Shown here: in pieces, positions 9,405-13,112 of the stretch
Layout: each line of letters opens with the position of its first letter
Numbering within the stretch: the stretch's first letter is position 1
Assembly: GCF_018860385.1 (NCBI RefSeq)
Contig: NZ_JAHKPH010000014.1
Location: 406,487-470,486 of the forward strand
Direction: 5' to 3'
DNA from: Reinekea forsetii
Lineage (GTDB): Bacteria; Pseudomonadota; Gammaproteobacteria; Pseudomonadales; Natronospirillaceae
DNA: 64,000 bases
Translations under genes and position numbers: made by a program
Notes under the pieces: model-generated
Database searches by the model: none
Seen by the model: the letters and a program-made list of their open reading frames with translations, nothing else
Told to the model about the DNA's origin: nothing

Positions 9405-9929
9405 TTACTGGCCTTGCCAACGAATGCGATCTAAAAAGATTTTTGCTCGATCCACGCGTGTTTCCATCGAGGGTTTATACATCATTGAGATTTTCACCCA
9501 TTGATCACCGTCTACAAAAATACGGTGTTCTTGGGTACGGTTCTCCGCATCATAGAGCGTGTAACTCGCGCTTTGCTCTGTGGTGGCTAGCGGTACTTTA
9601 ATATCACTGGCGCCTACTTGTTGGTCTTGGACCATGAGATCACGAACGAATTCATCGAATGGCTTTGCTAAGGTATCGGTTTGCACCATAAACAGCATTC
9701 GCTTTCTATCGAGCACCCATGTTGTTGGCTGGTTGGCTACCTGATCCGGCTCATCTTCCCATTGAAGAGAAAGGTTAGGGCTGATCTGTTGGGTGACATA
9801 GGTGGGCTCTTCAATGGTTACGCCGCGAGTTGGCCACTGCATATAGAAAAAACCTGCCGTTAACACAATGAGAACCCATCCTGTGGGTTCTTTAAGTAGT
9901 CGCGGTAAGCGATCTAGTACCTGAGTCAT
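9405..9929 (-). CDS. membrane-anchored protein at the end of the psp operon
   Basis: I do not recognise this family. The 174-residue protein has one N-terminal membrane helix (about residues 18-31, WVLIVLTAGFFYMQW) with a cytosolic basic lead, and a C-terminal domain of about 140 residues that should lie in the periplasm. It has alternating beta-type segments and no cysteines. It follows pspC by five bases on the same strand, so it is very likely part of the psp transcript and exposed to the periplasm, where it could sense or report membrane damage. That function is inference from position. Confidence 0.7.
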   Translation of the reverse strand: MTQVLDRLPRLLKEPTGWVLIVLTAGFFYMQWPTRGVTIEEPTYVTQQISPNLSLQWEDEPDQVANQPTTWVLDRKRMLFMVQTDTLAKPFDEFVRDLMVQDQQVGASDIKVPLATTEQSASYTLYDAENRTQEHRIFVDGDQWVKISMMYKPSMETRVDRAKIFLDRIRWQGQ

Positions 9930-9934
9930 ATCAC

Positions 9935-10411
9935 CTAATCTTGTATTTTGGAGAATTCTTTATCGAGTTCAAAGCGTCGCGAAGTCACATAGGATTCCAT
10001 TCGGCTGGTACGCTCAACAATGGCATCCAGTCTTTCTTTTGCGAGCGATAACCGTTCGGTTGGGTTGCTCCTATAACGGAACATATTAATTGGACGGTCT
10101 TCGTGCAAGTGCTCGTCGTATCGGTAATGAGTGCTTATCGTGCCATGCTTTGGACGCTGAGCCATGGCTATCCAAGCGCCGATATAAGCGAAAAACATCA
10201 AGGTGTTAAAAAACAAAAAACCACCGAATGCCGCTAATCTCATCACCCACGGTTCCACATTAAAATGATCGGCGAGGCCGGCGCAAACTCCTGCGAGCTT
10301 TTTATGGTCCATGTTGCGATACATGTTCATGCCATAGCCGTCTTTACGGCGAGCCCACCAGGTTTGAACGGCCTCAGCAGGATCTTGATAAGTATTGCGC
10401 TGACGATTCAT
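9935..10411 (-). CDS. pspC: phage shock protein C, long form
   Basis: Inner-membrane component of the Psp envelope-stress response; with PspB it releases PspA from PspF under stress (known for E. coli). The PspC domain is clear at residues 29-88: NMDHKKLAGVCAGLADHFNV, PWVMRLA and a hydrophobic segment LFFNTLMFFAYIGAWIAM. A C-terminal coiled coil (RLSLAKERLDAIVERTSRME) follows. A 28-residue N-terminal extension precedes the domain. Its start overlaps the pspB stop (ATGA), indicating coupled translation. Confidence 0.92.
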   Translation of the reverse strand: MNRQRNTYQDPAEAVQTWWARRKDGYGMNMYRNMDHKKLAGVCAGLADHFNVEPWVMRLAAFGGFLFFNTLMFFAYIGAWIAMAQRPKHGTISTHYRYDEHLHEDRPINMFRYRSNPTERLSLAKERLDAIVERTSRMESYVTSRRFELDKEFSKIQD

Positions 10412-10662
10412 CGTTTATCCTCTCTTCTTGAAGATTCACGCCGCCACTGAGGACTGCGCGCATCGAGAATAGATTCTAATGTTTCCATGCGGTCGGTTAG
10501 TTTATCCAAAGTTCGCAATAAATCATCTAAAACCGCCTGATCGGATTCCGTTAAGCCACGGCTGTTTTTGCTCTTGTACCGATAATGCATTATCAGCCAA
10601 AGTGGCATCACAATGACCAAGAATAAGATGGTCGGTACAAAAATAAAGTCAAAAAATTGCAT
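10408..10662 (-). CDS. pspB: phage shock protein B
   Basis: An 84-residue inner-membrane protein that partners PspC in Psp signalling. It has an N-terminal membrane helix (FVPTILFLVIVMPLWLIMHY), a linker, and the characteristic coiled coil MEXLESILDAxxPxWR type (here METLESILDARSPQWR). It starts three bases after the pspA stop and overlaps pspC. The same architecture appears in the two small proteins at 1073 and 1301. Confidence 0.92.
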   Translation of the reverse strand: MQFFDFIFVPTILFLVIVMPLWLIMHYRYKSKNSRGLTESDQAVLDDLLRTLDKLTDRMETLESILDARSPQWRRESSRREDKR

Positions 10663-10665
10663 GGT

Positions 10666-11334
10666 TTAGTCCTGCTTCATATCCTTACGGAGCTTCTCAA
10701 GAGCCTCATTAACGGCATCGTCTTTGGCTAATGAATCGATTTCAGTTTTTAGATCTACTTTGGCATCCCGGCCTAAATCATCGGCTTCTATTTGGCTTTC
10801 CATTGTATCCATTCGACGCTCATAATGCTCGAACTTCTCAAATGCATCCGTCAGCTGCTCACGACTTAATTGGCCACGTGTGCGCATACGAGTAGAAACC
10901 GTCTTTTGTCGCATTAACAAGCCTTTCTGTTTGGCTTTCGCATCGTTCAATTTTTGTTGTAATTGAGCGATTTCTTCCGATAAATGGGCTAAATGATCGT
11001 CTAGTGAATCAAATTCCTTTTCGACCATAATGACTTCGTCATCGATCGATTGCTTTTCAGCAATTGCAGCGCGGGCAAGGTCTTCTCGGTTTTTATCTAA
11101 GGCTAATCGTGCTTTAGACTCCCAATCGAGCGCTTCTGATTTTAAGCGATTTAAGCGACGTTCGGCGTCTTTTTTATCAGCGATGACGCGTGCAGAGCTT
11201 GAGCGCACTTCAACTAAAGTTTCTTCCATTTCTTGAATTATCAAGCGAATCATTTTTTCAGGATCTTCCGCTCGATCTAATAACGAGTTGAGGTTGCTGT
11301 TTATGATATCGCTAAGTCTTGAAAATATTCCCAT
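10666..11334 (-). CDS. pspA: phage shock protein A
   Basis: A 222-residue peripheral membrane protein of the PspA/IM30/ESCRT-III family, almost wholly coiled coil. It binds and protects the inner membrane and inhibits PspF when stress is absent. The N-terminus MGIFSRLSDIINSNLNSLL is the amphipathic membrane-binding helix, and DRAEDPEKMIRLIIQEMEE is the family hallmark. Length matches E. coli PspA. It is preceded on the same strand by a 49-codon gene at 11375-11524. Confidence 0.96.
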   Translation of the reverse strand: MGIFSRLSDIINSNLNSLLDRAEDPEKMIRLIIQEMEETLVEVRSSSARVIADKKDAERRLNRLKSEALDWESKARLALDKNREDLARAAIAEKQSIDDEVIMVEKEFDSLDDHLAHLSEEIAQLQQKLNDAKAKQKGLLMRQKTVSTRMRTRGQLSREQLTDAFEKFEHYERRMDTMESQIEADDLGRDAKVDLKTEIDSLAKDDAVNEALEKLRKDMKQD

Positions 11335-11374: not shown

Positions 11375-11524
11375 CTATCGATTAAAAATTCGATTAACGG
11401 CTTCCAAAATCAAGGCTGAAACTCCAAAGCTTAATAAGCCAGCCCATAAAAACGTGACTGAGGCTAATGCGCTGCTCAGTGTAATAAGACCTAAGTAAAG
11501 CGGTGTTCGCTCGGTTAATTCCAT
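11375..11524 (-). CDS. 49-residue hydrophobic protein, first gene of the psp operon
   Basis: A small gene read from an ATG at 11524 to a TAG at 11375. A strong ribosome site GGAGG lies about seven bases before the ATG. The product begins MELTERTPLYLGLITL, is hydrophobic through about residue 40 (one long or two short membrane helices: LGLITLSSALASVTFLWAG and LLSFGVSALILEAV), and ends RIFNR. It sits between the candidate sigma-54 promoter and pspA, so it would be the first protein made on Psp induction. I do not recognise it; PspD and PspE do not fit in sequence or position. It is short, so there is some risk that it is not expressed. Confidence 0.65.
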   Translation of the reverse strand: MELTERTPLYLGLITLSSALASVTFLWAGLLSFGVSALILEAVNRIFNR

Positions 11525-11558
11525 GTTGAGTCCTCCATTTTATTCTTATTTTGCATTA

Positions 11559-11574
11559 TCACAATGCGTGCCAA
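11559..11574 (-). promoter_or_regulatory. candidate sigma-54 (-24/-12) promoter of the psp operon
   Basis: Read on the minus strand, TTGGCACG (11574-11567) is a very good -24 element. The -12 position, ten bases after the GG, is GA instead of the usual GC. The predicted transcript start falls near 11548, about 24 bases before the 49-codon gene. The site lies between pspF and the psp genes, where a PspF-driven promoter is expected. The imperfect -12 element lowers confidence. Confidence 0.5.
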
Positions 11575-11688: not shown

Positions 11689-12699
11689 ATGGATCGTAAC
11701 CAAACCCAGCGCATGATTGGTGAAAGCTCGGCATTATCGGATGTCTTTGACCAAGTATCACAGGTCGCACCGCTAAATAGGCCCGTTCTGGTTGTCGGAG
11801 AGCGTGGTACCGGCAAAGAACTCATTGCAGAACGATTGCACTTTCTATCGACACGATGGGATGCACCCATTTTAAAAGTTAACTGCGGCGCTATCAGCGA
11901 AACCTTATTGGATGCTGACTTATTTGGATACGAACCAGGGGCTTTTACCGGAGCCAATAAGATACACAAAGGGCGTTTTGAACGCGCAGACGAAGGCACA
12001 TTATTTTTAGATGAGCTCGGTAATATGTCCGCTCAGTTACAAGAAAAACTTCTCAGGGTAATCGAGTATGGTGAGTTTGAGCGATTAGGCGGACAGAAGA
12101 CGTTGAAAGTGAACGTACGCATAATTGCGGCCACCAATGAACACTTGCCCGAGCTTGCACGCAATGGGAAATTTCGTGAAGACTTGCTCGATCGATTAGC
12201 CTTTGATGTTATTACCATCCCGCCACTGCGTTCTCGCGAGAATGATATTTTACGGCTGGCGGAACATTTTGCGGTATCCATGAGTACCGAACTGGGCTGG
12301 GAAGTGTTTCCAGGGTTCTCGCTTGATGTTCAGGACGAACTCAGAGCGTTACCTTTTTATGGCAACGTTCGAGAGCTTAAAAATATTGTCGAGCGAAGCG
12401 TTTACCGGTGGGGCAACCCACTTGAAGAAATCAACCATTTGGTTGTTGATCCATTTGAATCCCCATGGAAACCTAGCTCAAATCATCTACAATCGTCTAC
12501 CAGTAAAACTGAATCACTAGACCCTACGTTAGGATTCAGTGAGCAAGTAGCCCGTTTAGAGGTTTCTTTATTAACTCAAGCGCTCGATAAAAATGACCAA
12601 CATCAGGGCAAAGCTGCAGACGTATTGGGTCTCACTTACCATCAATTTCGCAGTCAATTGAGAAAGCACGGCTTAATCGGAAAAGATAAAGCCAGTTGA
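11689..12699 (+). CDS. pspF: psp operon transcriptional activator PspF
   Basis: A 336-residue sigma-54-dependent activator without a receiver domain, as usual for PspF. The AAA+ domain starts near the N-terminus, with Walker A VGERGTGKELIAERLH, the sigma-54 contact loop GAFTGA (in YEPGAFTGANK), Walker B TLFLDELGNM and the arginine-finger region FREDLLDRLAFD. A Fis-type helix-turn-helix lies at the C-terminus (AADVLGLTYHQFRSQLRKHG). It is divergent from the psp operon and should bind upstream sites in 11580-11688. No clear ribosome site precedes the ATG, which suggests low expression. Confidence 0.95.
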   Translation: MDRNQTQRMIGESSALSDVFDQVSQVAPLNRPVLVVGERGTGKELIAERLHFLSTRWDAPILKVNCGAISETLLDADLFGYEPGAFTGANKIHKGRFERADEGTLFLDELGNMSAQLQEKLLRVIEYGEFERLGGQKTLKVNVRIIAATNEHLPELARNGKFREDLLDRLAFDVITIPPLRSRENDILRLAEHFAVSMSTELGWEVFPGFSLDVQDELRALPFYGNVRELKNIVERSVYRWGNPLEEINHLVVDPFESPWKPSSNHLQSSTSKTESLDPTLGFSEQVARLEVSLLTQALDKNDQHQGKAADVLGLTYHQFRSQLRKHGLIGKDKAS

Positions 12700-12761
12700 C
12701 ACCAAAGTCGAATAGACATGACTCCCGTAAAAGCGCTTACTGAAAGAAAAAAGTGAGTGTT

Positions 12762-13112
12762 ATGGCCAATCAACAATTATTTACGACCGTTATATTAACG
12801 TTAATCAGTCTTATCTTTGCAGGGATGCTACTGTCTTCGCCATATCAGGTTTGGATGGTGCTCGCCGCCATTGGTTTAATCACCGGGCTGGTATTCAAAG
12901 ATGGGCAACGCCATGTGATTACAGGGTTTGCGATAGGGATTGCACTGACACTTGTACGCGAATACATGAGTTACGGAGAGGTGGTTAGAGTAACGGCTCC
13001 AGTCTACTTAGCCGGATATCTTTTTGCCATCGCAACCAGCTTATTCGTCAGAACCGTAAAACTAGCCGTGATGAAACGATTCGGTAATTCGCTTGCACCG
13101 GACGCAACTTAA
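12762..13112 (+). CDS. small integral membrane protein, unknown function
   Basis: A 116-residue protein with about four hydrophobic segments: TTVILTLISLIFAGMLL, VWMVLAAIGLITGLVF, VITGFAIGIALTLV and VYLAGYLFAIATSLFV. I do not recognise the family. I chose the ATG at 12762; a GTG at 12753 would add three residues and neither has a strong ribosome site. It follows pspF by about 60 bases on the same strand and could be co-transcribed. A terminator closes the unit at 13195-13232. Confidence 0.65.
   Translation: MANQQLFTTVILTLISLIFAGMLLSSPYQVWMVLAAIGLITGLVFKDGQRHVITGFAIGIALTLVREYMSYGEVVRVTAPVYLAGYLFAIATSLFVRTVKLAVMKRFGNSLAPDAT

Follow-up and report, generated by a model that had tools for sequence, protein, structure and literature searches.

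The 49-codon open reading frame (ORF) between pspF and pspA in Reinekea forsetii is, judging by its conservation and by the selection acting in its frame, a genuine protein-coding gene, and its product most likely belongs to a so far undescribed family of tiny proteins of the inner membrane. Upstream of it lies a sigma-54-type site, and this placement supports the view that, in part of the Pseudomonadales, the psp operon under PspF/sigma-54 control has this gene as its first cistron. The Psp response to membrane stress has been studied extensively, and we know of no textbook psp operon with a gene in the first slot before pspA. The features of the locus within the window, by which we mean the whole stretch of 64,000 nucleotides analysed, are as follows.

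9405..9929, minus strand: uncharacterised 174-aa protein, 3' of pspC; no family
9935..10411, minus strand: pspC, 158 aa; PF04024 at 2.9e-17, above cut-off; TIGR02978 at 88.6 bits, below the cut-off of 104
10408..10662, minus strand: pspB, 84 aa; PF06667 at 6.3e-27; TIGR02976 above cut-off
10666..11334, minus strand: pspA, 222 aa; TIGR02977 at 270.6 bits, cut-off 242.95
11375..11524, minus strand: small membrane protein gene, putative first psp cistron, 49 aa, ATG start; from sequence, conservation and selection
11532..11536, minus strand: Shine-Dalgarno GGAGG, 7 nt 5' of the small-gene ATG; from sequence
11559..11573, minus strand: sigma-54-type psp promoter-like site TGGCACGCATTGTGA (-24/-12); consensus match, compare TGGCACGCAAATTGT of E. 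coli K-12
11689..12699, plus strand: pspF, divergent sigma-54 activator; TIGR02974 at 470.4 bits, cut-off 443.55

The sequence-only reading had described an open frame with a strong ribosome site between a candidate sigma-54 promoter and pspA, and this description holds in every part: on one strand the TGGCACGCATTGTGA site is followed by GGAGG, the small ORF (11524-11375), pspA, pspB, pspC and the gene for the 174-aa protein, with pspF divergent. Membership of the psp operon is indicated by the PspF-type sigma-54 site upstream, recognised as a consensus match, and by pspA downstream on the same strand. At the far end of the operon, a homologue of the 174-aa protein adjoins pspC at all six g1 loci and at five of six g4 loci (the remaining one being truncated), and none was found beside pspC outside g1 and g4 among the 78 loci compared below. 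Downstream of pspF the window also encodes a 119-aa hydrophobic protein (12753-13112), for which Pfam and NCBIfam gave no match above cut-off.

An ORF of 49 codons is by itself conceivable as a product of chance. A single-sequence search (E <= 0.01) identified homologues in 10 of 57 related genomes, its own genome included, and the ten peptides show 41-67% identity to the window peptide, few alignment gaps and the same genomic place. Among four sequences from the window's genus, the mean in-frame pN was 0.25 against a pS of 0.70, and the two remaining frames of these sequences gave pN/pS values of 0.36/0.39 and 0.44/0.13. Pairwise codon comparisons returned pN/pS ratios of 0.26-0.40 for six pairs from the window's genus, 0.20-0.70 for fifteen pairs from g4 and 0.22-0.42 for fifteen pairs from f40 g86, which are to be taken as rough because synonymous sites are near saturation; in the alternative frames of these alignments the synonymous excess was gone or reversed. 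This pattern indicates that purifying selection acts on the protein, in the ORF's own frame only, and it is the combination of conservation and in-frame selection that identifies the ORF as a real gene, which we consider secure, and that rules out a spurious ORF. The related idea of either a spurious frame or a type I small hydrophobic toxin would suit a short and hydrophobic product, but the conserved slot and charges, the purifying selection and the homologues found in a second operon all speak against it, and Rfam at gathering threshold returned no RNA element and no antisense RNA family, so that we regard it as barely credible.

In order to describe the spread of the gene, we compared psp loci across the order, where pspA (TIGR02977) was detected in 78 of 390 genomes. 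The 78 loci used leave out G030, in which pspA is split over contigs, add G020 from the single-sequence search, and count both the window and its near copy in the same-species genome G391. The pspF gene is divergent at all 78. The slot between pspF and pspA holds the small-gene family at 22 loci, another short hydrophobic ORF at four, a secreted protein or lipoprotein at five, and nothing at 47. The pspF-pspA gap measures 335-834 nt where a hydrophobic gene fills the slot (26 loci) and 166-297 nt at 44 of the 47 empty-slot loci, the remaining three having 404, 404 and 412 nt. The hydrophobic slot ORFs of L069 and L083 (f47) and of L072 and L089 (f1) were kept out of the family count, since none of these four genomes matched the family profile, although L072 and L089 were nevertheless included in an alignment. 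The sequence-only reading had let its claim hang on conservation of the frame in relatives, and the frame is indeed conserved, with a homologue in the slot at 22 of 78 loci and in-frame purifying selection.

A 21-member profile matched 22 of the 39 genomes in the carrier group, and by position all 22 matches lie beside pspA. The gene is missing from G003, a congener that does have pspA, and also from 5 of 16 f40 loci and others; the congener shows that it is not essential to the psp operon. The pspB gene was detected at every carrier locus, as was pspC (weakly in L052, E 0.006), and since both are kept, the small gene comes on top of the usual psp genes. A combined PspA and PspF tree, made by a quick method with four rows lacking PspF, places all 22 carriers in one starred group of 35 rows (SH-aLRT 99), within which the small gene requires at least five changes of state; gain and loss are not separable in this tree, and a single old origin with later losses is possible. 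The order-wide search matched 14 of 390 genomes, ten of them strongly; these 14 include G286 and G390, as well as G150, a true match beside pspA, and G137, whose match is not near pspA. A wider spread of this sequence family through the Gammaproteobacteria was considered and rejected: among 369 genomes of the class, only 19 of which have pspA, the profile matched nothing except its own genome and nine others at E 2.1e-4 or weaker. The named relatives of the peptide belong to Reinekea and Saccharospirillum (five named records).

Several other observations concern the slot itself. At L036 (G018) the pspF-pspA gap is unusually long, 834 nt, and a promoter-like site is still found 60 nt 5' of the small gene. 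In other gammaproteobacterial families, the slot is occupied at 6 of 20 class-level pspA loci and at 4 of 4 f7 loci (L118, L121, L122, L124, L128, L134, L102-L105) by a small protein whose start resembles a signal peptide, and these proteins show weak mutual likeness. Small envelope proteins seem to occupy this slot quite generally. At L090 (G255) it is filled by a lipoprotein-like protein that carries a SHOCT domain. Two genomes carry two pspA copies each (L115/L134 in G530, L116/L135 in G737), and within the stretch read a divergent pspF is present at one copy only.

The position of the promoter-like site bears on the order of the cistrons. The TGGCACGCATTGTGA site (11573-11559) lies 49 nt before the small-gene ATG and starts 239 nt before pspA; its E. 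coli K-12 counterpart, TGGCACGCAAATTGT, is found at -67 of pspA. In 19 of 22 carriers the pattern TGGCA[CT]N5NTG, derived from these loci and present in E. coli K-12, stands 49-125 nt 5' of the small gene, and in 38 of 47 empty-slot loci it stands 52-194 nt 5' of pspA. Shuffled intergenic regions contained it in 18 of 3900 cases, a control that overstates the strength of the pattern somewhat because it was chosen after some loci had been seen. The pattern is absent in three carriers (L056, L058, L064) and nine other loci, and in the carrier L050 the small ORF itself contains a second match. The site thus shifts together with the small gene, as would be expected of a first cistron, and the earlier suggestion that its peptide would be the first product made under PspF is supported by this placement in 19 of 22 carriers. 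An ORF placed like this one, in the 5' portion of the transcript and 2-65 nt ahead of pspA across carriers, could also be a leader: its translation would govern the translation of pspA or the stability of the mRNA, and the peptide would be idle. We find this very improbable, since selection acts on the amino acids, the 21-member alignment is almost gap-free, the spacer to pspA is variable, pspA has its own ribosome site and Rfam gave no match at gathering threshold.

Members of the family are 49-65 aa long and combine a single hydrophobic stretch (about 33 residues) with an N-terminal R/K-x3-Y motif and a Glu near the C-terminal end. Using hhalign, the f1 set (10 sequences) and the f40 set (11 sequences) gave a full-length profile match (E 1.2e-9) with a score of 47.6; the highest score was 25.0 among 300 shuffles that preserved hydropathy classes and 16.2 among 200 full column shuffles, and the reversed set scored 15.4. 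In the 21-member alignment (A4) the Tyr and Glu are invariant and the Arg nearly so; in the 28-member alignment (A5) only the Glu (E41) is invariant, in 28 of 28. Residues 10-38 are uncharged in 17 of 21 members, with one charge in the other four, and most of the 21 have K/R at both ends. From its composition only, the product is predicted to be a membrane protein. A dip in hydropathy at residues 24-29, a place taken by Gly-Pro (L058 and L064), Gln or His in some relatives, is suggestive of a turn. The window protein is modelled by AlphaFold2 as one continuous helix over residues 7-48 (pLDDT 92, pTM 0.48) and the L058 protein as one helix over residues 5-46 (pLDDT 70), without a hairpin.

Curated Pfam and NCBIfam models gave no match above cut-off for the window protein, and PHROGs gave nothing for it. 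A scan of 23 aligned members returned scattered weak families only, none common to more than two members. A search of solved structures yielded one match, a viral spike glycoprotein at E 0.06, which is at chance level and was rejected.

Among known Psp and Lia proteins, the closest parallel is LiaI of Bacillus subtilis, likewise a small membrane protein encoded with a PspA homologue in a stress-induced operon. In the liaIH operon liaI precedes liaH. According to PMC9239133, LiaI in Bacillus recruits LiaH and anchors it at the membrane. PMC11237479 places LiaI in the LiaI-LiaF-TM domain, a 4TM region as described there, whereas the proteins here, at 49-65 aa, have a single hydrophobic segment of some 33 residues; control also differs, by PspF/sigma-54 here and by LiaRS for LiaI. 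No LiaI or LiaF model was among the 12 Pfam families matched at E <= 1 by 23 members. PspB (PF06667) is also a small membrane protein beside PspA, but a separate pspB is present here and the small peptide has no PF06667 match. PspG (PF09583) resembles it as a small membrane protein of the PspF regulon, and PspD (PF09584) as a small psp operon protein. In E. coli pspD follows pspC. PspG is described in the literature as an unlinked orphan gene in E. coli. The PspG model matched 0 of 80 genomes, the window's included, and the PspD model matched 0 of 80 over cut-off, with one weak match, while the E. coli controls matched in both cases. These searches of genomes and members rule out a PspG or PspD in disguise, and since the small protein fails the sequence tests for LiaI, PspG and PspD, we do not file it under any of them. 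Most likely it works like LiaI by analogy, and we do not claim homology.

The absence of PspG and PspD from the genomes searched also bears on whether the protein is an effector and not an adaptor, acting alone in the bilayer (proton leak, lipid order) as PspG or PspD might and replacing them. Its size and hydrophobicity fit such a role, and relatives occur in an operon where pspA was not seen. However, PspD and PspG are also absent from related genomes without the small gene, so replacement would not be specific, the conserved charged residues at the edges resemble a contact surface, and there is no similarity to either model; we consider an effector rather unlikely.

The relatives just mentioned were found with the 21-member profile, which gave a second match in 7 of the 39 genomes (best E 1.4e-9, weakest 0.0027; loci L137-L143). 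These homologues encode proteins of 63-65 aa and lie 3' of der, a placement fully checked for L142; at six of these seven loci the gene precedes one for a small membrane protein of 93-107 aa. In L142, the only locus where this operon was typed in full, the genes that come next encode a protein matching DUF2807 (PF10988, E 1.6e-38), a regulator of the GntR type, and the ATPase and permease of an ABC transporter; in L138 (G387) a DUF2807-like protein lies directly 3' of the small gene. An inverted repeat, mostly GTGTTATAGTTnnGTATAACAC or near it, is found immediately 5' of the small gene in L137-L143. The psp set and the second-home set match each other as profiles at E 7.8e-10. We also searched 30 loci around DUF2807 matches and obtained further homologues in G150 (E 6.7e-12) and, weakly, in G233 and G340 (g111; 7e-4 and 0.017); L153 is also among the loci where a peptide homologue heads a DUF2807/Toastrack operon. 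On these profile matches, diverged relatives of the psp peptide head a second envelope-related operon. In f40, 10 of 11 genomes with the psp peptide have a DUF2807-neighbour homologue (the eleventh, G289, has no DUF2807 match), as against 0 of 5 without the peptide, a co-occurrence that is a hint and not a test because the genomes are related.

PMC11237479 unites DUF2807 with Toastrack and lists Toastrack-ABC-GntR operons among the likely functional analogues of Psp; its section 27 on these operons names no such small gene. The second gene of the operon (L142:3164-3442, with counterparts in L137, L139-L141 and L143) ends in a segment resembling the second half of the peptide (GIG-L-I-FF-PAALL-E). 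This segment matches the peptide profile at E 0.01-0.04 only, and the gene is perhaps a fusion or duplicate of the peptide unit. At L092 (G356) and L073 (G372) a DUF2807 domain lies directly beside pspA and pspC was not detected; Toastrack may replace PspC there.

The two settings raise the tentative and on balance doubtful possibility that the peptide is a shared membrane module heading two independent envelope operons, psp (PspF/sigma-54) and GntR-Toastrack-ABC, as a common membrane-side sensor or adaptor linking both stress responses. They also bear on a signal-side regulator which, being made first, would damp or prime PspB/PspC by feed-forward or feedback and set the threshold of PspF release. 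Its place as first cistron behind the PspF promoter would suit this, as would the related genes that head an operon with its own GntR and an inverted repeat just before them, but pspB and pspC occur also without the small gene, and such a regulator seems distinctly unlikely to us.

We favor, at roughly even confidence, a membrane accessory encoded by the first cistron that helps PspA/PspBC at the membrane in the manner of LiaI. Once PspF is released, the small protein would be made just before PspA and would insert into the inner membrane with both charged ends cytoplasmic, as a hairpin or one long tilted helix. Its residues at the cytoplasmic edge (R/K6, Y10, E41) could then contact PspA or the membrane parts of PspB/PspC, so that PspA would be anchored to the damaged membrane, or tuned there, in the way LiaI acts on LiaH; the small protein's expression, membrane insertion, topology, partner and role are here those we infer. 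In favor of this accessory role, the gene is always beside pspA in carriers, and its relatives in the second operon sit in a Psp-linked context. Counting against it are the single helix modeled by AlphaFold2, the three carriers without the promoter pattern and the congener without the gene, and an anchor is not obviously needed because PspB and PspC are also present; the case for the role is built on analogy and on gene neighborhood.

Our search of the literature on small or upstream psp genes found no description of this gene, in a body of sources where subscription journals are thinly covered and absence is unproven, and two recent broad psp surveys, built on known domains, do not mention it in their available parts. 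As a conserved first cistron under selection, it is a new candidate component of the psp response, and its natural absence in the congener G003 makes its effect directly testable. Through its relatives in the Toastrack operon, two systems that until now were connected via shared domains and neighborhoods would also be linked by sequence.
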